DNA of 64,000 bases from Bacteroidales bacterium (GTDB taxonomy: Bacteria > Bacteroidota > Bacteroidia > Bacteroidales > UBA12077). The notes under the pieces are model-generated. The model was given only the letters and a program-made list of their open reading frames with translations, was not told where the DNA came from and did no database searches. Each line of letters starts with the position of its first letter. Position 1 is the first letter of the stretch. A program made the position numbers and the translations under genes. The stretch lies in NCBI GenBank assembly GCA_016342685.1, contig JAEINU010000013.1, forward strand, positions 1-64,000, written 5' to 3'. Positions 3,016 through 17,879 of this stretch are shown here, one piece after another.

Positions 3016-6000
3016 TTGAATAGGAAGAATAAACATATAAAATCAAGTGCTTTAAAAGCAATCAGATCTTTGGTAAAGATTTCGATTGTGCTTGCTTGTA
3101 TTTTATGGTTTATGCAATCGGGTTCGTTAAAAGCACAGGTTATTAATAATAATGGTGCAGCAATTTCTGTAAGCGGTGGAACTTTTGTTCAAGGTGATAC
3201 TTTGGAAAATACTGCTGGTTCTATTTTAAACAATGGCACAATCGGATTAAGAGGTCATTATATTAATATTGGTACTACTGGTGGTAATGGGGTGTATAAT
3301 TTGCAAGGAAACTGGATCAACACAGGTATTTTTAATGCAGGATTTAGTTCTGTTTATTTCCTCGGTAATAAAAACCAAATCATAACAAGTGTTGGGGGAG
3401 AACAGTTTTATAATCTTACTATTAATAATTTAGGAGGTACTTCAGCAACAAATAGGATAATCTTATCGAATAATGCCGATGTGGCAGGAACACTTTCAAT
3501 AGCACAGGGTAATATCGAAACAGGTGCAAATACTTTATTTCTTACAAATCAATCAGCGGCTTCGCTTAATTATACTTCGGTTACGGGAAGTAGGGTAATT
3601 GGTAAATTTGAACGTGGAATAAATGCTGCAGAAAACTATTTGTTTCCTATTGGATCTGATGCAAATTATAATCCATTAAATCTAAATACAAATTCGATAC
3701 AAATTGGAGGATCTGTTCTATCGGAATTTGTAGTGGCTGATCCTGGTGATGTTGGCCTTCCAATACCAGATGCAGGTTTCCCATTAGCTAAAGATAGTGT
3801 TGAAGTATATGAAGCGTTTGATGATGGATACTGGAGTTTAACATCTAACAATGGTTTTTCCAGTAATGATTATAATATTAATCTTGATGGCTCAGGTTTT
3901 TTATCTCCTTTACAGGAAATTACTCGAATTATTAAACGTCCAGCTGGAGGAGATTGGTTAGTTGATGGTAGTCATAACAATGCGATCGGTTCTATTGCAT
4001 ACAGGAATAATTTTTCGGGAGGAATTTCTAACACAGGAAATCATTTTGGATTTGGTCATTGTAGACCAAGAATTCAGGTTCAACCAAAAGATACTGCTGT
4101 TTGTGACGGAGAAAGTGCTGAATTTTCAGTAGTGGCTAGTGGTCCTCAACCATTAACTTATCAATGGCAAGAATTTAGGGGGGTAGGGTGGAACAATATC
4201 TCTGATGGAGGAATTTATTCAGGTACAACATCAGATACTCTTTTAATTGATCCTACTGATCTTAGTATGAATGGTTATCGCTACAGAGTATTTATTTATG
4301 ATCAATATGGTAATTTTAAAATAAGTCTGTCTTCGGCAACCTTAACGGTTAATCCAAACCCAGTTGCAACAGCTACACCACAAATAGATACGATTTGTAG
4401 CGGTAGTACAACTTTTATAGATCTTAACAGTGATGTGGTTGGAACAACCTATTTTGTTGAAGTATTAAATTTTGCAACAACAACAATTTTGGGAGCAGAT
4501 GGAACATTAGTAGACGATACAACAATTCAACAAACCCTTATAAATCCTTCATTATTTGCCGATTCAGTAGTTTATCGAATATTCCCAACAGGACCAGTTT
4601 CAACTTTCTGTGGTGGTACTGCCGATACAGTTATTATTTGGGTAGAACCTACCGTTGAAATTAATGCAGTTAATGATACAATTTGTAATACTGATTTTAC
4701 AAACATTCTTGTAACAAGTCCAAATACAACAACAAACGGAATAAGATATACATGGAGTGTTGTGCAAGATGCAAATATTACCGGAGCAACAAATAGTATT
4801 GGTCAGGGGCAAAATATTAATACAGCTATAATACAATCTCTTACAAATAGCGGATTGGTAGCTCAAAAAGCGACGTATACAATTACTCCTTGGGCAGTTA
4901 ATGCAATTAATATTAATGAATGTACTGATGCTGGAGAAGTTATAACAATTGATATTTGGGTTGAACCAACTATCCAAATTAATGCAGTAAATGATACTCT
5001 TTGCGATGGAGATATTACAAATATTGTAGTTACCAGTCCAAATACAACAACGAATGGAATAAGGTATACATGGACAGTTGCTGATAATCCAAACATTAAC
5101 GGTGAAACAAATAGTGTTACAACGGGTCAGCTTATTGGATCGGCAATCGCACAAACCCTTATAAATACAAGTGATTCTAAACAATTAGTGCAATTTGTAA
5201 TTAGCCCATGGTCTATTAATGCTATCGACGAGAATGAATGTACCGATGCTGCAGAAATTATTACAATTGACATTTGGATTGATCCAACGCCTCGTGTTAT
5301 TGTAGATGTTATTCGGGATACAATTTGTAATGATACATATACTCAAATAGACTTAACAACTCCAAGTGTATTAACTACAGGTATTGTTACATTCGATTAC
5401 AATTCAATTGCTGACTTAGGATTAACAGGTAATAGTACTGGAATAACTGGATTAATTGATGGTAATTCGATTGTAGATTCCTTGCATAATGCAACAGCAT
5501 GGCCTGCAACTCCATTGCTTGTTCGTTATAGTATAACACCAAAGGGAACAGCTATTGGTTGTGCCGATGGAACAATAATTACCGATTCAATAACAGTTCA
5601 TCCAACAGCAGATACAAAGTTTGTTGATGTAGATAGTGTAACATGTTATTTGGATTCGGATGGTACTGCTACAATCGAGGCTAGGAATACAATAAATAAC
5701 TTTACCTTCCTTTGGAACGACCCTCTTAATCAAACAGATTCAATTGCAGATGGATTGGTACGTGGGGAATATATCGTTACTGTTACCGATAATCAGGGTT
5801 GTATAAAATTGGATACAGTTTTAATCGAAGAGCCTGATGAGTTATTCGCAGGATTAGATAGTTTATCAGATCTCTCTTGTTTTGGAATGGGTGATGGTTA
5901 TGTCGAAGTTGATCCGATTGGAGGAAATGGAAAGTACACATACATATGGTCACTAGGTGGAGTAGAAATAGCAACCACTCCATTTATTGCAAATGTAAGT

Positions 6001-7965
6001 GGTGGAGATTTTGACGTTACGGTGTATGATTATAAATTCTGTCGTAAGGATACTTCTTTTACAGTTGTTGAACCAAATCAACCGAATATTAATATTGATG
6101 TTAATAATGTAAGATGTTATGGCGAAAACGATGGTTGGGTAGAAGTTACTACTCCAGCAATTTCGTATGAATGGGATACTGGAGAAACAACTTCTAGAAT
6201 TGAAAATTTAACTGCTGGGGAATACACTGTAACAATTACAACAGGAGATAACTGTAGAGCATCTTCTGGTGCTGAAATCATTGAACCAGACTCTATCACT
6301 GTCGGTCATAATAAAACAAATATCATTTGTGCTGGAGATGCAAGTGGAACTATAGATTTAACCGTAATCGGAGGAAACGATTTCTTTGCATATACATATA
6401 ATTGGACAACTGTTGGTGGAAGTGGATTGGTTGTAACAGACGAAGATCAAACTGGAATATCTGGAGGTAAATATTATGTTACAGTAAGCGATTACAGAGG
6501 TTGTACAGGTACCGATTCTGCAGAAATTGAAGAGCCTGGTCCATTCTATTTGGATCCAGACTCATCAAATGTTACCTGTTTTGGTGATTCAAATGGTTGG
6601 ATATCTCTTGATGTGTTTGGAGGAAATGGTACCGATTATACATATGTATGGTCGAATTTAAGTGGCGATAGTTTTGGAGATGTTCCTTTAATTGAAAATC
6701 TGCAAGCAGATGAGTATTATGTTATTGTAAGAGATACAGCATCGTGTGAAATATTTGATACTATTTTAATAACAGAACCAGATCTTTTAAAAATTAAGCC
6801 GTTTGAAACAAATTCTACTTGTTATGGATACAATAATGGTACAATAAAAATAGATATTACAGGAGGAAATGGTGGATACAACATCAATTGGTCCAACGGC
6901 GAAAACACTGATTCTATTCATAGTCTTGCTTCTGGAACTTATTATGTTACAGTGGTAGATACAGAGAATTGTACTGCATCGGATACCATTGATATTAATG
7001 AACCCGAAGAAATTATTCCAAACATTACTTCAAATAACATTACTTGTTTTGGATTTAATAATGGTATTATAGAAGCTAATCCTTCCGGAGGAATTTCGCC
7101 ATATAATTATATCTGGAGTCACGATCCATTGCTAACTATAAATGAGGCTTTGGATTTAGATCCTGGAAATTATTTAGTAACTGTTGTCGATGGAAATAAC
7201 TGCGAAGACATAACAAGTATTGATTTAACACAACCCGACCCATTGGAAGTCACTGTAACAAAACAAGATATTACATGTTACAGTTTTGGCGATGGATACA
7301 TTAGCCTTTCTATTTTTGGAGGCACTCCAGATTATTCGTACCTATGGTCGAATGGTGTAACCGAGCCAAATGCACAAATGCTTACAGAAGGAAATTATAA
7401 CATTAAGGTAACCGATATAAATAATTGTGGAATCGATACCACGATTGAAATTATTGAACCTGAAAAATTAATTGTAACACCGGTTATAAGAAGACCTACA
7501 TGTCCAGACATACAAGATGGTTATATTGAGTTAAATCTCGTGGGAGGTATTCAACCATATCAAATTTATTGGGGCGATGGAAATCCCGAAGAAAACTTAT
7601 ATGATATTCGATCAGGGATATATGATCTTTACATTAATGATGTAAATCTTTGTGAAATAGATACGTCCTTTACAGTTCGAAGTATACGAGATTTTTGTAT
7701 TAATATCCCAACAGTTGTAACTCCTAATGGAGATTCATTTAACGAAAAATGGGAAATCAATATGGGTGGACTTTATCCTAATGTTGAAATTGAGATATTT
7801 AATCGATGGGGTAAACGAGTATTTTACTCGAAGGGATACGAAGAGTCGCAATTCTGGGATGGCACCGAGAATGGGAAGGAACTTCCAATGGACTCATATT
7901 ATTATATTATTAATCTTAAAAATGGGGCTGAGAGATTATCCGGAATCGTAACAATTATTAGATAA
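3016..7965 (+). CDS. Giant T9SS-secreted SprB-like adhesin with gliding-motility-type C-terminal domain
   Basis: 1649 residues. An in-frame TGA at 2989 limits the start, leaving TTG at 3016, followed by an N-terminal hydrophobic segment (ISIVLACILWF) and cleavage near LKAQ. Residues about 40-350 look like a beta-rich passenger, 350-445 an Ig-like domain (AVCDGESAEFSV), and 450-860 PKD-like modules, two of which repeat with a 106-residue period (EINAVNDTIC / QINAVNDTLC). Residues about 868-1558 hold nine SprB-type repeats, nearly all with an early Cys (TCFGDGDG-like) and a late Cys (DxxxC). The last 85 residues (VVTPNGDSFNEKW, NRWGKRVF, FWDGTENGKELP, YYIINLKNG) are a type B T9SS sorting domain. 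Export by the type IX system to the cell surface follows from family knowledge. SprB itself is the mobile gliding adhesin of Flavobacterium. Whether this organism glides is not shown. Confidence 0.88.
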   Translation: MNRKNKHIKSSALKAIRSLVKISIVLACILWFMQSGSLKAQVINNNGAAISVSGGTFVQGDTLENTAGSILNNGTIGLRGHYINIGTTGGNGVYNLQGNWINTGIFNAGFSSVYFLGNKNQIITSVGGEQFYNLTINNLGGTSATNRIILSNNADVAGTLSIAQGNIETGANTLFLTNQSAASLNYTSVTGSRVIGKFERGINAAENYLFPIGSDANYNPLNLNTNSIQIGGSVLSEFVVADPGDVGLPIPDAGFPLAKDSVEVYEAFDDGYWSLTSNNGFSSNDYNINLDGSGFLSPLQEITRIIKRPAGGDWLVDGSHNNAIGSIAYRNNFSGGISNTGNHFGFGHCRPRIQVQPKDTAVCDGESAEFSVVASGPQPLTYQWQEFRGVGWNNISDGGIYSGTTSDTLLIDPTDLSMNGYRYRVFIYDQYGNFKISLSSATLTVNPNPVATATPQIDTICSGSTTFIDLNSDVVGTTYFVEVLNFATTTILGADGTLVDDTTIQQTLINPSLFADSVVYRIFPTGPVSTFCGGTADTVIIWVEPTVEINAVNDTICNTDFTNILVTSPNTTTNGIRYTWSVVQDANITGATNSIGQGQNINTAIIQSLTNSGLVAQKATYTITPWAVNAININECTDAGEVITIDIWVEPTIQINAVNDTLCDGDITNIVVTSPNTTTNGIRYTWTVADNPNINGETNSVTTGQLIGSAIAQTLINTSDSKQLVQFVISPWSINAIDENECTDAAEIITIDIWIDPTPRVIVDVIRDTICNDTYTQIDLTTPSVLTTGIVTFDYNSIADLGLTGNSTGITGLIDGNSIVDSLHNATAWPATPLLVRYSITPKGTAIGCADGTIITDSITVHPTADTKFVDVDSVTCYLDSDGTATIEARNTINNFTFLWNDPLNQTDSIADGLVRGEYIVTVTDNQGCIKLDTVLIEEPDELFAGLDSLSDLSCFGMGDGYVEVDPIGGNGKYTYIWSLGGVEIATTPFIANVSGGDFDVTVYDYKFCRKDTSFTVVEPNQPNINIDVNNVRCYGENDGWVEVTTPAISYEWDTGETTSRIENLTAGEYTVTITTGDNCRASSGAEIIEPDSITVGHNKTNIICAGDASGTIDLTVIGGNDFFAYTYNWTTVGGSGLVVTDEDQTGISGGKYYVTVSDYRGCTGTDSAEIEEPGPFYLDPDSSNVTCFGDSNGWISLDVFGGNGTDYTYVWSNLSGDSFGDVPLIENLQADEYYVIVRDTASCEIFDTILITEPDLLKIKPFETNSTCYGYNNGTIKIDITGGNGGYNINWSNGENTDSIHSLASGTYYVTVVDTENCTASDTIDINEPEEIIPNITSNNITCFGFNNGIIEANPSGGISPYNYIWSHDPLLTINEALDLDPGNYLVTVVDGNNCEDITSIDLTQPDPLEVTVTKQDITCYSFGDGYISLSIFGGTPDYSYLWSNGVTEPNAQMLTEGNYNIKVTDINNCGIDTTIEIIEPEKLIVTPVIRRPTCPDIQDGYIELNLVGGIQPYQIYWGDGNPEENLYDIRSGIYDLYINDVNLCEIDTSFTVRSIRDFCINIPTVVTPNGDSFNEKWEINMGGLYPNVEIEIFNRWGKRVFYSKGYEESQFWDGTENGKELPMDSYYYIINLKNGAERLSGIVTIIR

Positions 7966-8082: not shown

Positions 8083-9822
8083 ATGAGAGTATTAAACTTT
8101 ACTTTTCTTTTTATTTTTTCATTTATTTTTATTACAAATTCAGCGTTTTCTCAGGAACAATTAACTCATAAAAAGAAAATATATCGCTCGCCGGAAGGGA
8201 AGTTATATGTAAATAAAGATTTACCAATTTATTTCAGGATAGCTACCTCTGACGATGACGAAGCCGAATCATTTTTGTTAAATCCAGCACCAGATTCAAA
8301 AAAGTATGCAAACCCAATGTATCTTGATACTGAGGGGTACAATACATTTCGATCGCCATCAAAGGTAGATACGGTTACAAAAAAAGTTATATATCCTTTA
8401 GAAGATATTATTTATCAAATGTACTCCGATAGTAGGGCGCCAATCACGAAGTTTTCGTTCGATAAAAAGAAGTATTTCAAATCTGCAAATATTTATTACT
8501 TTGGAGAAATTATCGATCTTAAGTTTTCATCATCTGATGCTACTTCGGGAGTTGAGAAAACCTACTATTCTATGAATGGCGCTGGTTATGTTGAAATAAC
8601 CGATAATTTAAAGCTCGATAAAGAAGTTTTATACGAGATTAAATATTATTCTGTTGATCATGTAGGAAATGCAGAATCACCAAAATCAATAAAAATTAAA
8701 ATAGATATAACAAAACCTAGCACAAAGCTTTCTGTCGATACAGATCTGCATGAAAATATAATATCTCCACGATCAAAAATCGTATTAGAAGCTAGTGATA
8801 ATAACTCAAAGGTAAAGAAAACAGTATTTTCTCTTAACGGAGGAACAGTGTATAACTATAATACTCCAATTGTAATTTCAGGCTTAAAAGAAGGTGAACA
8901 TAGCATAACTTATTATTCTACCGATAACGCTGGGAATGTTGAAGCTCACAAAGTATATGATTTTTATTTAGATAAGTCAGCACCATTAATTGTTGATGAA
9001 TTCATTGGAAATACATTTATTGCAAATGGCAAAGAATACTCTTCCGGAAGAAGTAAAGTAAAGCTAACGGCAATGGATAATAAAGCTGGAGTTAAAGAAA
9101 TTAGATACTCAATTAACGGCGGCGAGTTTATGGAATATACTAAACCTTTCTTTTTATCGAAATCAGGAAAACTAAAAATACAAACATTTGTTACCGATAA
9201 TGTAAATAATCAGAAAATAACGGCCATTATGACAAATAAATCGGCCATCTCTTATGTTGATTTATCTGGACCTACTCTAGGGCATTATTTTCAGGGACCT
9301 AATTTTAATTCGAAAGATACAACTTACATTACTAAAGACACAAAGATTAAACTAGCTGCCAAAGACGATGCATCAGGATTTAGCAGGTTAGAATATAGTC
9401 TAGATAACGAAAGTATTGTAGATTATGAAAAAGCATTTAGTATTGGTAATGATGGGGTTCATGTGATTACTTATTCTGGATATGACTTTGTTGACAATTC
9501 AAGCACCAACACCTTTACTTGTGTGGAAGATAATGTTGGGCCTGAGATATTCTTTAGATTCAGTATATTATCAAATAAATCGAAGAATATAGATGGAAAA
9601 ACATATGAAGTATTTCCAAACCATGTTGTGCTATTTTTGTCATCAACCGATTCGTCTGTTGGTTTCGAGAAAATTTCATATTCAGTAAATGGCGCGGCAT
9701 TTAAGCCATATACTAGTCTTATAAAAGGATTTACAACAGATAAATTATATTCTATAAAAGTTAAATCTGGTGATAAATTAGGAAATGTAAGCGAGAAAAC
9801 GATAGATTTTTATATTGAGTAG
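8083..9822 (+). CDS. Exported protein with five tandem Ig-like (OmpL47-type) repeats
   Basis: 579 residues with a signal peptide ending at SAFSQ. After about 100 residues come five similar modules, near residues 125-210, 215-300, 300-395, 396-490 and 490-579. Each has a D-x-x-x-P-type opening, a Y/FS-x-NGG core and a closing YYSxDxxGNxE motif. This pattern is annotated in databases as OmpL47-type beta-barrel or Ig-like repeats and is seen in bacterial surface proteins. No catalytic motif and no T9SS sorting domain are visible, so a periplasmic or outer-membrane-associated structural role is more likely. It is 118 bp downstream of the SprB-like adhesin and only 20 bp upstream of the phosphatase gene, making it the first gene of a three-gene operon. 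Confidence 0.75.
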   Translation: MRVLNFTFLFIFSFIFITNSAFSQEQLTHKKKIYRSPEGKLYVNKDLPIYFRIATSDDDEAESFLLNPAPDSKKYANPMYLDTEGYNTFRSPSKVDTVTKKVIYPLEDIIYQMYSDSRAPITKFSFDKKKYFKSANIYYFGEIIDLKFSSSDATSGVEKTYYSMNGAGYVEITDNLKLDKEVLYEIKYYSVDHVGNAESPKSIKIKIDITKPSTKLSVDTDLHENIISPRSKIVLEASDNNSKVKKTVFSLNGGTVYNYNTPIVISGLKEGEHSITYYSTDNAGNVEAHKVYDFYLDKSAPLIVDEFIGNTFIANGKEYSSGRSKVKLTAMDNKAGVKEIRYSINGGEFMEYTKPFFLSKSGKLKIQTFVTDNVNNQKITAIMTNKSAISYVDLSGPTLGHYFQGPNFNSKDTTYITKDTKIKLAAKDDASGFSRLEYSLDNESIVDYEKAFSIGNDGVHVITYSGYDFVDNSSTNTFTCVEDNVGPEIFFRFSILSNKSKNIDGKTYEVFPNHVVLFLSSTDSSVGFEKISYSVNGAAFKPYTSLIKGFTTDKLYSIKVKSGDKLGNVSEKTIDFYIE

Positions 9823-9842
9823 ACTTTTCTAAAAGTCAGTTT

Positions 9843-12041
9843 ATGAATAAAATAATCCGAACACTAATCATACTTTTAATTTTTATTCAATCGGGATTTG
9901 CTCAAAATCTCGATTCAGAAGTAATTGATGAAATCGAAAAATATAAATCCGAAGTTGAAAAATATAAAGAAAACAAGAATTCTATTCAGCAGGCAAATTT
10001 TCTAAATAAAATAGCATATGTATTTTGGGAAAATGAGCTATTCGACGAGGCAATTAATTACTTCTCCAAATCGCTTGAGATAAATCAATTAAATAAAAAC
10101 AAGAATGGGATTAAGTCTTTATATTTTAATATTGGCTTAATTTATTCCGACAAAGAGGATTATCAGTTAGCACTTTCAAGTTTTGATAATGGATTAAGAA
10201 TAGCCCAGCAACTTAAACAAACACAAGGAATTTACACAGGACTTATTAATAAAGCAGGAGCGCTCAAAAATTTAAATCAAAGCGCCGAAGCCATTTCTGT
10301 TTTAAAGAATGCTTTGCAATATGCCCAAGAGTTAAATAATTTAAAGCATATTCGAACGTGTTATGGAATGCTGGCAGAAAATTACGAAATAGAGAATGAC
10401 TCAGAAAACACATTAAAATATTTCGAATTATTTGCATCCGTCGATAAGCATATTAAGTTGGAGCAGATTAAAGAGATTGAAAAACGGAGTAAACAAGAAG
10501 TCCATACAGCACAAACCGACAAAATAAAAACCGAACAGGAATTATCGAAAAAGTCGGACCAATTAGTTGAAACACAACAAACGTTAAAAGAAACAGAGGA
10601 GATTTCAAAACAGCAAGAGTTGGAACTTAACCTTAAAGAACTTGCAATACGCGAAAAAGAGGCTCAACTTGAGAATGAGAAATTAATTAGATATGGAGTT
10701 TCTGCAATTTTTGTATTTATACTTTTATTTTCAATGTTGATATACAGACAGTATAAGGCAAAAAAGAGAGTGAATGAAAAGCTTGCCGAACAAAATCAAA
10801 AAATAAATATCCAGAAAGAAGAAATAGAAAAGCAAAGAGATTTAGCGAATACACAAAAAACGGCCATTACAGATAGTATTCGTTATGCCAAGCGAATTCA
10901 AAGCGCTTTATTGCCTCCCGAAAGTTATATTAAAAGAAATCTTCCCGATCATTTTATACTTTATAAACCTAGAGATATTGTAAGTGGCGATTTTTATTGG
11001 ATGATGAATAAAGACGATAAAATTATCATTACAGCGGCCGATTGTACAGGACATGGCGTACCAGGAGCATTCATGAGCATGTTGGGAATTGCATTTTTAA
11101 ATGAGATTCTTACGAAGATAATTGAAAATAAACATGTGTATTCATTGCAAGCAAATGAAATTTTGAATCAGCTTCGAACATACATTATTGAATCTTTGCA
11201 TCAAACGGGAGATCCTGACGAATCAAAGGATGGTATAGATATGGCAATTTGCATTATCGATCCCGAGAATCATAAATTACAATACGCAGGGGCTCATAAT
11301 CCATTATATTTGATTCAGAACAATGAGCTTAAAATAATTAAAGGCGATAGAATGCCGGTGGGAATTCATAAAAAGGCCGATGTTTCATTTACAAATCACG
11401 AAATTGATATAAATGAAAACGATCTTATTTATATGTTCTCCGATGGATATTACGATCAAATTGGCGGCCCCAAAGGGCGAAAGTTTATGTCGAGGAATTT
11501 CCAACAATTAATGCTTGATATTCATAAGGAATCGTTACCAGAACAGAAAAAAATCTTAGATAAAAAATTTGAAGATTGGAAGGGTAAGGAAATTCAATTG
11601 GATGATATTCTTGTTATTGGTGTTAAACTGGAATTAACAAAGAAGACACAGCAAAAAGATGATTCTTATGATTGGAGTAATAAAGTAATTTTAATTGCTG
11701 AAGATACAGAGATGAATTATATTTTTTTAGTTGAAGCTTTAAAACCAACAAAAGTGAAAATTTTACGAGCAAAGGATGGAGAAGAAGCAGTAAGTATTTT
11801 TAAGGAAACCGAAAAGATTGATTTAATACTTATGGATATAAATATGCCGAAATTAGACGGCTTCGAAACTACAAAGGAGATTAAGAAAATTAATCCTAAT
11901 GTACCAATAATAGCACAAACAGCACTTAATATTGAAGATGCCCGGGAAAAAGCTACTGAAGTAGGTTGCGACGATTACATTCTTAAACCCATAAGACTCA
12001 AATATTTACTCACAAAACTAGATACTTTCTTAAACAACTAA
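9843..12041 (+). CDS. Membrane TPR-SpoIIE (PP2C-type) phosphatase fused to a C-terminal receiver domain
   Basis: 732 residues. Order: signal peptide to residue 20, periplasmic TPR-like helices (about 25-200), coiled coil, one membrane helix (about 282-300, YGVSAIFVFILLFSMLIY), cytoplasmic coiled coil, SpoIIE-type PP2C domain (about 345-600), and receiver domain (about 612-732). The phosphatase shows SGDFYW, ADCTGHGVPGAFMSMLG, DGIDMAICIID and MFSDGYYDQ, which contain the Asp/Gly metal-binding positions of the family. The receiver has the acceptor Asp in LILMDINMP, a Thr in AQTA and the Lys in ILKP. SpoIIE phosphatases dephosphorylate Ser/Thr of STAS-like or SiaC-like proteins. A DUF1987 gene begins 3 bp downstream and is the obvious substrate. 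A receiver at the C-terminus would make phosphatase output respond to a histidine kinase. Confidence 0.87.
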   Translation: MNKIIRTLIILLIFIQSGFAQNLDSEVIDEIEKYKSEVEKYKENKNSIQQANFLNKIAYVFWENELFDEAINYFSKSLEINQLNKNKNGIKSLYFNIGLIYSDKEDYQLALSSFDNGLRIAQQLKQTQGIYTGLINKAGALKNLNQSAEAISVLKNALQYAQELNNLKHIRTCYGMLAENYEIENDSENTLKYFELFASVDKHIKLEQIKEIEKRSKQEVHTAQTDKIKTEQELSKKSDQLVETQQTLKETEEISKQQELELNLKELAIREKEAQLENEKLIRYGVSAIFVFILLFSMLIYRQYKAKKRVNEKLAEQNQKINIQKEEIEKQRDLANTQKTAITDSIRYAKRIQSALLPPESYIKRNLPDHFILYKPRDIVSGDFYWMMNKDDKIIITAADCTGHGVPGAFMSMLGIAFLNEILTKIIENKHVYSLQANEILNQLRTYIIESLHQTGDPDESKDGIDMAICIIDPENHKLQYAGAHNPLYLIQNNELKIIKGDRMPVGIHKKADVSFTNHEIDINENDLIYMFSDGYYDQIGGPKGRKFMSRNFQQLMLDIHKESLPEQKKILDKKFEDWKGKEIQLDDILVIGVKLELTKKTQQKDDSYDWSNKVILIAEDTEMNYIFLVEALKPTKVKILRAKDGEEAVSIFKETEKIDLILMDINMPKLDGFETTKEIKKINPNVPIIAQTALNIEDAREKATEVGCDDYILKPIRLKYLLTKLDTFLNN

Positions 12042-12044
12042 CCT

Positions 12045-12431
12045 ATGGAACCTTTAATTATAGCTGCAACTCAAGAAACGCCCGGTGTAAACTTTGATAA
12101 AGACCTAGGAAAGTTTTTAATATTTGGGAAGTCATTCCCCGAAGAGGTTAAACGTTTTTTCGATCCTATTATTTATTGGTTGCAAGAATATGAAGCCAAT
12201 TCAAACGAAGAAACCAAATTTGAGATAAGATTGGAATATTTTAATTCTTCTACTGCTACTATGTTACTTGAGGTGCTTTATACCCTTGAGAAAATTATTC
12301 ACGATCGTGGTAAAAAAGTAGTTGTAATATGGAATTATCTGGAAGAAGATGATGATATGTTAGAGGTTGGTGTAGAGTATTCAGAAATGATAGAAGTGCC
12401 GTTTGAATTTAATGTTATTCAAGATTATTAA
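12045..12431 (+). CDS. DUF1987 / SiaC-family regulatory phosphoprotein
   Basis: 128 residues, the normal length of the family. Recognisable segments are the opening beta strand with TPGVNFD, the GKSFPEEVKRFFDPIIYWLQEY stretch, the central LEYFNSSTATMLLEVL and the acidic EEDDDMLEVG. In Pseudomonas aeruginosa SiaC is phosphorylated by the kinase SiaB and dephosphorylated by the PP2C phosphatase SiaA, and it controls the diguanylate cyclase SiaD. SiaC carries its phospho-Thr in a matching N-T-S-S segment; here the candidates are Ser68, Ser69 and Thr70 (my alignment by eye). The gene follows the SpoIIE phosphatase by 3 bp, so they are surely co-transcribed. No SiaB kinase and no GGDEF protein lies in this window, so the kinase and the downstream partner must be elsewhere or different. 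Confidence 0.82.
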   Translation: MEPLIIAATQETPGVNFDKDLGKFLIFGKSFPEEVKRFFDPIIYWLQEYEANSNEETKFEIRLEYFNSSTATMLLEVLYTLEKIIHDRGKKVVVIWNYLEEDDDMLEVGVEYSEMIEVPFEFNVIQDY

Positions 12432-12701: not shown

Positions 12702-12702
12702 G

Positions 12703-12776
12703 CTCCCCAGGTAGGATTTGAACCTACGACCCCCTGATTAACAGTCAGGTGCTCTAACCAACTGAGCTACTGAGGA
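12703..12776 (-). tRNA. tRNA-Asn (anticodon GTT)
   Basis: Read on the minus strand as TCCTCAGTAGCTCAGTTGG... The acceptor stem TCCTCAG pairs with CTGGGGA (one G-U). The anticodon stem CCTGA/TCAGG encloses the loop CTGTTAA, giving anticodon GTT, and the T arm contains GGTTCAAATCC. The discriminator is G and CCA is not encoded. Length 74 nt. Confidence 0.97.
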
Positions 12777-14091: not shown

Positions 14092-16005
14092 TTATCCCGT
14101 AGGAGACAATTTGGTTAATTGTTTATTTATTATAGATAAAAGTACCTTCGGTTTAACTGGTTTTATCAGATAGTCGTCCATTCCAGATTCAAAGCCTTTA
14201 TCAATGTCACTTGGCATAGCATAAGCCGATTGCGAAATAACAGGTATATCTTTGTTTATGAATTTAATGCGTCGGGTGGCTTCATAGCCATCCATCTCTG
14301 GCATTTTGATATCCATTATTATAACATCAATTTTATTGTTCTCTTGCACAATTCTAACAGCTTCTAATCCGTTAACAGCCTTTAATATTTTCGCCTTTGT
14401 TATTTTCAGAACTTCTTCAATGTAAATATAATTTGCGGGTTCATCTTCAGCAACCAATATAGTTTTATCTTTCCAATCATATTTATCGTTAGAGACTGGT
14501 AAATGAGAACTATTTGTCAGAGATTTTACCTTGTTAAATGGAATCGTAAAATAGAATGTAGAACCGATTGAAGGAGATGATTCAACCCATATTTTACCAC
14601 CAAGTAATTCAACTAAGCTTTTACTTATCGCTAATCCTAATCCTGCGCCACGATATAATCTGGAGGAGTCATCCTCAATTTTCGTAAAACGGTCAAAAAC
14701 CAAATCTTTTTTGTTCTGATCCATTCCCAATCCTGTATCTTTTACATAAAATAAAAGTTCATTGGAGTTTTTAATTTCGTAGCCAAACTCTATAAAACCA
14801 TCTTCGGTAAATTTTAATGCATTGCCAATCAGGTTTGTAAGAATTTGATTCAACCTTAAAGAATCTGTTTTTATAGTTATATCTTCATCAGGAGTATTGT
14901 CATTAAGTCGGATATCAACTTTTTCTTTTTCCTTCTGTTTTTTAATTTCAGAAAAGGATTGAAGTATTTCGTTTAGGGTATCTTTTAAATTGCAATCTCT
15001 TTGTATTATTTTCAGTTGGTTTGCCTCGATTTTTGATATATCAATAATATCATCAATCAAATGAAGGAGGTTGTTGCCACTATTATTTATAAGCTTAACA
15101 AAATTTTCTTTTTCACCCGGTGTAACTTCAGAATCAGGCATTGTCAGTAATTCAGTAAATCCCAGAATTGCATTCATGGGAGTTCGAATTTCATGCGACA
15201 TATTTGCAAGAAAGGCAGATTTAAGATGATCACTTTCTTCGGCTCTTTCTTTTGATTTTAAAAGCTTCTTCTCTGCAATATCACGTTCTTCTTCACGTTT
15301 TAGTATTTGTTTGAGCATATTATTAAAATCATCGTAAAGAATTCCAATTTCGTCGTTAGATTTTTTTTCTATTTGAATTGAATAGTTTCCTTCGCCAGAT
15401 ATTTTTCTTGTTAATTGTGCAAGATCCAAAATAGGCTGCGAAATTGGCTTTTGGAATCGATTAGCTAAGAAATAAGCAAGAACTATCATACCCAACAGAA
15501 TTCCTACAATAATAAGTATATAGTCCTGTATTTTTGCCATTAACAAGGTGGTATCTGTATGTATAACAATTATTCCATACTTAAAATTATTGTAAACAAT
15601 AGGGTGTTCAATTACAAGGGCCTCTTTTGTAAAAATCGAGAATGATTCTTCTAATGCATCCGGATTTTCGTATAAGGGTGGGATGAAAATATCTTCGGAA
15701 CGTTTATACGAGGAAAATAAAATCCCATTTCTATCATATAAAACACCAGAAACTACGCCAGGAATTGTCGATAATTTAGATAGGATATTTTCGGCTCCAA
15801 CATTATCATCAAAAGTTAAAGGGGCAACAGAATATTCGCCAATAAGCTTAATATTCATCAAAGTATTAAGATGCATTTCATTTCTTAAGCTCTTTATGTC
15901 GCTAATACCTACAATTGTAAATCCTATTAGCATTGTAATAGTACTTACAAAAAGTATTATACTTATTATTTTATTTTTTATTGATATATCGTGAAAGAAC
16001 TTCAT
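14092..16005 (-). CDS. Hybrid sensor histidine kinase with CHASE8-like input, HAMP and receiver
   Basis: 637 residues. Two membrane helices (about 13-33 and 155-178) flank a periplasmic domain resembling CHASE8 (SVAPLTFDDNVGAENIL, VLYDRNGILF). HAMP follows (about 178-235), then a HisKA domain with the phospho-His in MSHEIRTPMN (about residue 271), a HATPase with LTNLIGNALKF, DTGLGM and GAGLGLAI, and a receiver (about 513-630) with acceptor Asp in VIIMDIKMP and Lys in LIKP. The start ATG overlaps the YfiR stop by one base (TAATG), so translation is probably coupled. CHASE8 sensors are commonly encoded beside YfiR proteins, which in the Pseudomonas Yfi system bind and repress the membrane sensor. 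Its receiver resembles that of the SpoIIE phosphatase 2 kb away. No DNA-binding regulator is encoded here. Confidence 0.9.
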   Translation of the reverse strand: MKFFHDISIKNKIISIILFVSTITMLIGFTIVGISDIKSLRNEMHLNTLMNIKLIGEYSVAPLTFDDNVGAENILSKLSTIPGVVSGVLYDRNGILFSSYKRSEDIFIPPLYENPDALEESFSIFTKEALVIEHPIVYNNFKYGIIVIHTDTTLLMAKIQDYILIIVGILLGMIVLAYFLANRFQKPISQPILDLAQLTRKISGEGNYSIQIEKKSNDEIGILYDDFNNMLKQILKREEERDIAEKKLLKSKERAEESDHLKSAFLANMSHEIRTPMNAILGFTELLTMPDSEVTPGEKENFVKLINNSGNNLLHLIDDIIDISKIEANQLKIIQRDCNLKDTLNEILQSFSEIKKQKEKEKVDIRLNDNTPDEDITIKTDSLRLNQILTNLIGNALKFTEDGFIEFGYEIKNSNELLFYVKDTGLGMDQNKKDLVFDRFTKIEDDSSRLYRGAGLGLAISKSLVELLGGKIWVESSPSIGSTFYFTIPFNKVKSLTNSSHLPVSNDKYDWKDKTILVAEDEPANYIYIEEVLKITKAKILKAVNGLEAVRIVQENNKIDVIIMDIKMPEMDGYEATRRIKFINKDIPVISQSAYAMPSDIDKGFESGMDDYLIKPVKPKVLLSIINKQLTKLSPTG

Positions 16006-16583
16006 TAATTATTTTTTACTGGTTGTACAATTCGTGCCGAATTCATTAAATAAAAACTCATTTGCAAAGGAGATTTAAGAACAGCCGATTCATTTATCTC
16101 AAAACGCAACTTATTTTTTTCTTCAAAGAAATTAATTAGAACTCCGTTTTCTGCAAATTTCGGCGAATCGCTAATCGTTAATACTGGTAATCGTTCCGTA
16201 AGGGCTAAAATGTTTTGAAGATTTTTCCTTTCAGATTCTGCCACAACTAAAATATGACAATCTTTAATTTCGTAAAGATTATAAATCTTCTTAATTTCTA
16301 CTCGTTTATTATTGATTTTTTTTATAGCATATATTTGTTCAAGATTCTTATGTAATGGCGTTTTACCCATTACAGCAATAACAAATGGTTTATCTAGATT
16401 GTCCATTTCTGATTCTTCAGGCCAAGTAACAAATCGCGAGAACTTTTCTAAATAAACAGCTTTTAACACATAAATGTTTGCTTGTGAATAACTTTGAAAC
16501 GCACATATAGCAAAGAAAAAAGTTAAAATAAGTTTTAACTTAAGACCATTCAATATTATATGTGTATTTCTTTTTTTAATCAC
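16005..16583 (-). CDS. YfiR-family periplasmic regulator (DUF4154)
   Basis: 192 residues starting at GTG, with a signal peptide (LILTFFFAICAFQSYSQ). The family pattern is clear: KAVYLEKFSRFVTWPE near the mature N-terminus, FVIAVMG, CHILVVAESE, and a closing stretch with FEINESAVLKSPLQMSFYLMNSARIV. In Pseudomonas YfiR sits in the periplasm and inhibits the diguanylate cyclase YfiN under redox control. Here the likely partner is the CHASE8-like histidine kinase encoded immediately downstream. The gene is 3 bp from the binding-protein gene upstream and overlaps the kinase start by one base. Confidence 0.88.
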   Translation of the reverse strand: MIKKRNTHIILNGLKLKLILTFFFAICAFQSYSQANIYVLKAVYLEKFSRFVTWPEESEMDNLDKPFVIAVMGKTPLHKNLEQIYAIKKINNKRVEIKKIYNLYEIKDCHILVVAESERKNLQNILALTERLPVLTISDSPKFAENGVLINFFEEKNKLRFEINESAVLKSPLQMSFYLMNSARIVQPVKNN

Positions 16584-16586
16584 TTG

Positions 16587-17879
16587 TTATCTATTGTAAT
16601 AAGAAATCTCTTTGTATTTATCATTTTCTAAACCCCAAATTACAAATGTTGAATTTGGGTCGCCATTTTCATCAAAATCTATTTTACCCGAGGCTCCATT
16701 ATAATTAATCTCAACACCTGAGTTTATAAGCACAATTGCTTTGTCAAATTCGTTTACATTAATAATAATATCCTCATGATTTGGCGAAGTATCTTTGGTA
16801 ACATTTCGTAACTTCTGTTTTAAATCTTCGGGATTAACCGATTGTGCTTTTTGTATTGCATAAGCAATTGAATATAAGGCATCGTAAGCATGTTCAGAAT
16901 ATGTTGCGGGATCGAATCCGTATTTTTCAGCATAATTGCTTTTATAAGCACTATAGTTTTGAGTATTTGTTGTTGAGCTTGATATACCAATTATGGTTTC
17001 TAGAACTTCAGGTTGCCCATTCGATAAAAGTTCCTTTGGAAATGCTCCTTCAGTTAAAAAAAGTGTTGGTTTTGTATTGTAGTCTTGATAAAAATTTGAG
17101 TACCAAAGGTCTTGAGTTATTTTGGAAACCTCTTCTTCGAATATTGCTAAAAAAATTATTTGGGGTTCATACTCTAATAAATAGTTTATTTCATCGTCAT
17201 AATTATAGTTGCTTATGTCGACACCATTTGTTGGATAATAAGACTTTGCAACAATTGACCCACCCAAAGACTCAAATCGTTCTTGAATAATATTAGCCAT
17301 CGAAACTCCAAAATTATCATTTCTGTATAATATTGCTCCATTCATATATTGTAATGAATCAATCGAATATTGTGCCATTATTCGTCCACTAAAAGCATCT
17401 GATGGGCATGTTCTCCAAATTAAATCTTCATCTTCTAATATTGAAATCTCTGGAATTGTTGCAGAATACGTCATCATTAGTATATTATTATCTATGCACA
17501 ATTGAGTCATTTCAACAGCAACAGCCGAGGTTGTCGGACCGATGATAATATCCACCTTTCTTTCTATCAATTCATTAACAATTTTAATACCCGTTTTCGG
17601 ATTTCCTTCAGAATCTTTAAAAATTAATTCAAACTTTCTTTTTTCGCCATCAATATCAATACCTCCTTTTTGATTTATCTCATCGGCAGCCATTTTAACG
17701 GCAAAGAATATGTTCTCTGCAATTTCTCTGCCAATTGAAACATTTGCTATTACACCAATCCTAATAGGATTTTTAAATGATGATTTGTTATAATCTTCAT
17801 CCAGTTGTTCACAAGCAATGGTACTAATCAGAACCAAAGAAATAAACAGAATAAGTTTGTCTTTTAGTCTTTTCTTCAT
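16587..17879 (-). CDS. Lipoprotein of the branched-chain amino-acid receptor family (ABC-type substrate-binding protein)
   Basis: 430 residues with a lipobox (LISTIAC), so it should be lipid-anchored. The fold is that of periplasmic-binding-protein type 1 of the Leu/Ile/Val class: IRIGVIANVSIGREIAENIF, AADEINQKGGIDIDGEKRK, LIERKVDIIIGPTTSAVAVEM, SEHAYDALYSIAYAI and a final GKIDFDENGDP segment. These proteins bind amino acids, short amides or other small ligands. No permease or ATPase gene is nearby. The neighbours are a TonB-type receptor (3 bp upstream) and YfiR (3 bp downstream), so this copy is more likely a ligand sensor for the kinase than part of a transporter. Confidence 0.87.
   Translation of the reverse strand: MKKRLKDKLILFISLVLISTIACEQLDEDYNKSSFKNPIRIGVIANVSIGREIAENIFFAVKMAADEINQKGGIDIDGEKRKFELIFKDSEGNPKTGIKIVNELIERKVDIIIGPTTSAVAVEMTQLCIDNNILMMTYSATIPEISILEDEDLIWRTCPSDAFSGRIMAQYSIDSLQYMNGAILYRNDNFGVSMANIIQERFESLGGSIVAKSYYPTNGVDISNYNYDDEINYLLEYEPQIIFLAIFEEEVSKITQDLWYSNFYQDYNTKPTLFLTEGAFPKELLSNGQPEVLETIIGISSSTTNTQNYSAYKSNYAEKYGFDPATYSEHAYDALYSIAYAIQKAQSVNPEDLKQKLRNVTKDTSPNHEDIIINVNEFDKAIVLINSGVEINYNGASGKIDFDENGDPNSTFVIWGLENDKYKEISYYNR

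Follow-up and report, generated by a model that had tools for sequence, protein, structure and literature searches.

The closest described counterpart of the system analysed here is SiaABC(D) of Pseudomonas aeruginosa, in which Thr68 of SiaC is phosphorylated by SiaB and dephosphorylated by SiaA, and in which phosphorylated SiaC no longer binds SiaD (PMC7647112, PMC8457831). A second point of reference is the group of modular receptors with coiled-coil linkers, including RsbU-RsbT and RsbP-RsbQ, in which a sensor and its partner protein are joined to PP2C, histidine kinase or GGDEF outputs; the coiled-coil linker lets one sensor drive a PP2C phosphatase, a kinase or a cyclase, and this helical element has been put forward as the switch in SpoIIE phosphatases, kinases and cyclases that have sensors in common (PMC12143880). 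The window, a 64,000-nucleotide stretch of Bacteroidales DNA from a 4.77 Mb, 100% complete genome (G000), contains a three-gene operon for a genuine and conserved form of SiaA/SiaC partner switching that has an exported partner and whose output is not c-di-GMP; the papers searched gave no description of it. It shares with SiaABC(D) a SiaA-type PP2C domain, a SiaC-family target with a Thr/Ser phospho-site at the N-terminus of helix 2, and SiaB-type kinases in the same genome. It differs in that the phosphatase carries a periplasmic TPR sensor and a C-terminal receiver, an exported Ig-like protein accompanies it, SiaB is absent from the operon, and the genome has 15 SiaC paralogues and no GGDEF (SiaD) match. 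As in the RsbU-RsbT and RsbP-RsbQ receptors, a sensor with a partner protein drives varied outputs through a helical linker, whereas here the receptor is transmembrane, the partner is exported, the sensor is a periplasmic TPR domain and the outputs are PP2C-REC, PP2C, histidine kinase and class III cyclase (compare PMC12143880).

The three open reading frames lie on the + strand with gaps of 20 and 3 bp, and encode the exported Ig-like protein (OMPL; 8083-9822, 579 aa), a TPR-TM-SpoIIE-REC sensor phosphatase (9843-12041, 732 aa) and a SiaC-family (DUF1987) protein predicted to be a phosphoprotein (12045-12431, 128 aa). The coordinates and reading agree with the initial annotation, which had described adjacent genes for an exported five-repeat protein, a periplasmic-TPR/membrane/SpoIIE/receiver fusion and a DUF1987 protein, and the domains underlying each of these descriptions were recovered. 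A scan for promoters and terminators gave a signal no better than chance. The upstream neighbour (3016..7965, + strand, 1649 aa) ends 117 bp before OMPL and was correctly recognised as a SprB-like T9SS adhesin, with matches to SprB repeats as well as to a T9SS sorting domain of type B. Downstream of the operon there is a tRNA-Asn (GTT) gene (12702-12776, - strand) with the palindrome AAAACCTTCAGAATATTCTGAAGGTTTT beside it, followed by a single cluster (14092-17879, - strand) of a hybrid histidine kinase, a YfiR-like periplasmic protein and an ANF-receptor-type binding protein.

In OMPL, a Sec signal peptide and a conserved beta domain at the N-terminus precede five Ig-like (OmpL47-type) repeats (8521-8703, 8776-8967, 9046-9219, 9325-9510 and 9625-9816, + strand), matched by the repeat profile NF047446 with 241 bits (241.3; cut-off 40), and OMPL is the only protein of the window genome with such repeats above the cut-off. 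No lipobox cysteine was found, and the protein has no match to a T9SS C-terminal sorting domain in Pfam or NCBIfam, and a reading as T9SS cargo was rejected on this ground. A structure model built from 47 sequences (mean pLDDT 89.2) has the N-terminal beta domain followed by a string of separate beta-sandwiches, the relative placement of which is not fixed by the model (pTM 0.56). The nearest solved folds are the tandem Ig-like domains of the Aureispira grappling hook protein GhpA (9flp and others), followed by generic Ig and cadherin chains; GhpA is a giant surface filament, and the likeness to OMPL amounts to 11-12% identity with a query-normalised TM-score of 0.4 or less. Model and fold search together speak against a beta-barrel, which was rejected, and the repeats, originally labelled 'OmpL47 beta-barrel', are predicted to be Ig-like sandwiches instead. 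Leptospira OmpL47 (NF047441; PMC2698987) has the same repeat type, NF047446. OMPL differs from it in scoring below the cut-off of that equivalog (157.7 against 250), in a conserved N-terminal domain specific to the OMPL family, and in its modelled sandwiches in place of a barrel.

The phosphatase begins with a signal peptide (residues 1-20, 9843..9902; helix 2-18 in the model), followed by periplasmic TPR helices (residues 25-183, 9915..10391; Pfam TPR_12 and the model), a single transmembrane segment (residues 281-303, 10683..10751), a SpoIIE/PP2C domain of SiaA type with the catalytic Asp and Gly residues kept (391-595, 11013..11627) and a receiver domain with its phospho-acceptor Asp at residue 665 (616-726, 11688..12020), all on the + strand. 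In the model (mean pLDDT 79.9, pTM 0.42), the TPR helices (25-183) are followed by a helix at 187-269 and a long helix at 283-356 that holds the membrane segment and runs on into the phosphatase domain. The best solved match of the SpoIIE domain is P. aeruginosa SiaA-PP2C (6k4e, E 2e-36), while the next SpoIIE-type domain reaches 2e-6, and it therefore belongs to the SiaA branch; its GDFY, DC-GHG, DG and DDI residues align with the active site described for SiaA-PP2C (PMC7647112). The match to the full-length SiaA equivalog NF038263 is confined to the C-terminal half and falls short of the cut-off (195.3 bits against 700). The phosphatase receiver shares 50% identity with its counterpart in the nearby hybrid kinase (14092-16005).

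The 128-aa protein matches PF09345 (SiaC) with 120.9 bits (cut-off 24.5) and aligns to the SiaC structures 6kko/6k4f at E 2e-14, which together with the SiaA-PP2C match upholds the view of a SiaA/SiaC-like pair. Its score on the SiaC equivalog NF038265 is 79.1 bits (cut-off 150), and with both the SiaA and SiaC equivalog cut-offs missed the window proteins are family members, not the same proteins. Tyr65-Phe66-Asn67-Ser68-Ser69 of the window protein aligns with Tyr65-Leu66-Asn67-Thr68-Ser69 of SiaC. Both Ser68 and Thr70, singled out as candidate sites in the initial annotation, are present; Ser68 (codon 12246..12248, + strand) falls on SiaC Thr68 and is the predicted phospho-acceptor. Among the SiaC proteins of the loci studied, Ser/Thr at position 68 and Asn67 are invariant (91/91). 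Several sister loci (L111-L114, L116, L117, L119, L124 and L125) have two SiaC genes after the phosphatase, and where compared the single SiaC of the window is closer to the second of them, so that the first copy appears to have been lost in the window.

Taken together, these features point, with somewhat better than even confidence, to a partner-switching relay that would run from OMPL and the TPR receptor through SpoIIE to Ser68 of SiaC and on to an effector other than a diguanylate cyclase, a scheme in which we infer the contact between OMPL and TPR, the direction of control and the action of SiaB in trans. OMPL would cooperate with the periplasmic TPR domain of the transmembrane receptor to perceive a signal, which the membrane helix and coiled coil would relay to the SpoIIE (PP2C) domain in the cytoplasm; this domain may also be tuned when the receiver at the C-terminus is phosphorylated. 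The active phosphatase would dephosphorylate Ser68 in the neighbouring SiaC-family protein, undoing the work of one or more of the SiaB kinases encoded elsewhere in the genome, and dephosphorylated SiaC would bind and switch an effector that is no diguanylate cyclase.

OMPL, the proposed periplasmic or envelope partner of the TPR sensor, could in principle be the input of this relay or a product under its control, and the loci in which the output domain has been exchanged bear on this choice. In Ekhidna (Cytophagales; L127 and L131) OMPL is followed by a TPR-TM-histidine kinase, at L087 it adjoins a TPR-HATPase protein (histidine kinase output) and at L155 a TPR-TM-class III cyclase, few genomes in all (two Ekhidna, L087 and L155). 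The kinase version is carried by the named strain Ekhidna lutea DSM 19307. The best sensor matches outside the window clade are those of Ekhidna. A tree of the sensor domains places the kinase sensors of Ekhidna as sisters of the SpoIIE-REC sensors in the window clade (support 0.969) and nests L087 inside a SpoIIE clade; in the OMPL tree Ekhidna is likewise sister to the window clade (support 0.994), a congruence that linked genes would give even without contact. A sensor match lies within 3.5 kb of OMPL in 39 of the 52 genomes that have both. An OMPL-less paralogue operon (REC-SpoIIE/TPR-SpoIIE/SiaB/SiaC) is also conserved and present in the window's own genome (L011), and at L066 OMPL stands before a whole operon of this kind. 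Because OMPL keeps its place beside the TPR sensor even when a kinase or cyclase stands in for SpoIIE and SiaC, it appears to be a partner on the input side and not a regulated product. From neighbourhoods and trees, OMPL is best read as the exported half of a receptor, the input partner of an exchangeable transmembrane receptor. If true, the OMPL-TPR pair would serve as a natural test case for the proposed exchange of sensors and partner proteins between phosphatases, histidine kinases and cyclases.

The initial annotation had instead seen a SiaA/SiaC-like pair wired to adhesin or gliding functions, and a related explanation would make OMPL itself a surface or adhesive product, with SiaC tuning how OMPL and the SprB-like adhesin are expressed or exported and thereby affecting adhesion or gliding. 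Within the closest clade, where OMPL identity is 59% or more, a SprB/T9SS adhesin gene does adjoin OMPL in 14 of the 16 loci, at L122 OMPL remains beside the adhesin without the phosphatase, and the Ig tandems of the Aureispira grappling-hook protein are the folds nearest to OMPL. Leptospira OmpL47, which has the same repeat type, is reported to be surface-exposed (PMC2698987), so that OMPL might not reach the TPR domain, a point that counts against the receptor reading. Beyond the closest clade, however, no adhesin was seen within two genes of OMPL among the loci examined, OMPL bears no T9SS signal, and it keeps its TPR sensor where a kinase or cyclase takes the place of SpoIIE and SiaC. The wiring to the adhesin or gliding is thus not supported, and we consider a surface product unlikely.

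A separate question is how closely the phosphatase and the adjacent SiaC belong together. The window genome encodes 15 SiaC genes, many of which stand alone, 19 SpoIIE domains and six SiaB-type (DUF6272) domains at five loci. With this number of SiaC and SpoIIE proteins and so many solitary SiaC genes, the two might not be dedicated partners, the phosphatase serving several SiaC proteins and its neighbour being set by another phosphatase. Against this, the pairing is conserved in many gene orders and tandem SiaC copies stand beside the same phosphatase in sister genomes, and we regard a non-dedicated arrangement as quite improbable. The six SiaB-type domains, none of them in the operon, suggest that the kinase acting on the window SiaC is probably supplied in trans. 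The earlier statement that there is no SiaB kinase or GGDEF gene therefore stands in part: SiaB is missing from the window and GGDEF from the genome, but the genome does hold SiaB-type domains.

Conservation of the neighbourhood had been named as a check on the initial proposal, and it was found far beyond one strain. OMPL occurs in 60 of 295 genomes of the order (38 of 183 genera) and in only five of 395 other genomes of the phylum sample. Of 59 loci from the order, 31 have SpoIIE no more than two genes away from OMPL and 20 have SiaC there; for 80 named GTDB loci, a set that overlaps the first (e.g., L052 and L121), the counts are 47 and 36. A first neighbour of OMPL is SpoIIE in 22-27% of cases, and from the third position on the share of SpoIIE is 0-3%; SiaC is over-represented at positions one and two (also at three in the named set) and accounts for ~4% or less further out. 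The link between OMPL and SpoIIE is present in 17 of 30 families and that between OMPL and SiaC in ten of the 30, and the orders OMPL-SpoIIE-SiaC, SpoIIE-SiaC-OMPL, SiaC-SpoIIE-OMPL and SpoIIE-OMPL were all seen; these neighbourhoods across the order rule out a passive adjacency in one strain. SiaC is found in 56/60 genomes with OMPL and 66/235 without it (nominal p 3e-21, which ignores phylogeny), and in the four OMPL genomes that have no SiaC, OMPL also has no SpoIIE neighbour. That an old cluster was passively inherited or transferred together, with OMPL having an unrelated function, is very unlikely: local synteny is widely shared among Bacteroidota MAGs and the association p-value takes no account of this shared descent, but at least four different gene orders, the spread over 17 families, the sharp drop of SpoIIE beyond two genes and the exchange of output domains with the OMPL-sensor pair intact all speak against it.

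Some 35-42% of OMPL loci have no SpoIIE, SiaC or SiaB neighbour, some of them being contig ends and some belonging to a separate OMPL subclade that lacks TPR-SpoIIE (L088, L095, L169, L170, L173, L179 and L186). In the latter a small gene directly downstream of OMPL encodes a YfiR-like (DUF4154) protein, assigned by Pfam for L170 and by similarity for the other six loci, and this small protein is a second possible periplasmic partner of OMPL proteins.

GGDEF gave no match in the window genome, whereas 8 of 14 control genomes gave matches, and the suggestion that the output may be new gains from this, as it cannot be a GGDEF enzyme of this genome. Among 295 genomes surveyed in the order, 122 encode SiaC, 123 SiaB and 121 the two together, and only 4 of the 12 genomes with GGDEF also have SiaC; in one of the scans behind these figures, copies per genome were counted up to a ceiling of 14. 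With SiaB accompanying SiaC in 121 of 122 genomes and GGDEF in only 4, the output is not c-di-GMP, and this route is ruled out for the window genome and nearly all sampled SiaC genomes. The known role of SiaC proteins is to activate a diguanylate cyclase, yet GGDEF is missing from 118 of the 122 SiaC-bearing genomes sampled in the order. A literature search found no paper joining SpoIIE, Bacteroidetes and partner-switching, and none containing the phrases 'SiaB family protein kinase' or 'SiaC family regulatory phosphoprotein'.

Leads to SiaC outputs come from operons elsewhere and are not evidence on which effector the window SiaC itself acts. Among the best-scoring SiaC genes of 19 genomes, each has a SiaB neighbour (at L224 the neighbouring ORF carries both labels, SiaB and SiaC), and in 13 of the genomes a ~1030-aa TerB-ABC-ABC2 fusion is adjacent. 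SpoIIE-SiaB-SiaC-TerB/ABC/ABC2 operons, each on one strand, are found in the window genome (L010, 5411-12151) and at L238 (2810-9551) and L239 (3218-9968), with the ABC exporter occupying the place of SiaD in Pseudomonas, which hints at one new output class. The REC-SpoIIE, TPR-SpoIIE, SiaB, SiaC operon (L011, 8924-14686; L200-L202) adjoins a divergent REC-PAS-class III cyclase gene, a neighbour seen in the window clade, and here the cyclase is a possible output of SiaC switching. On a broader view, to which we give even weight for and against, many genomes of this Bacteroidota order would have a c-di-GMP-free SiaB/SiaC network with many parallel SiaC switches, one input class being the two-protein envelope receptor (exported Ig chain and periplasmic TPR) exchanged between PP2C, histidine kinase and cyclase outputs, and one output class the TerB-domain ABC exporter replacing SiaD. 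If true, these bacteria would use SiaC switching as a general, multi-channel form of phospho-signalling whose outputs await discovery, the TerB-ABC operon being a concrete first candidate.

Two further SiaC loci were noted in the window's own genome. At L015 (9128-12024) two tandem SiaC genes stand beside a TPR-PD40-OmpA protein whose domain set resembles that of PorE, a T9SS protein, and at L018 (9389-18001) a SiaC gene immediately precedes the gene for a giant exported Calx-beta protein of at least 2666 aa.
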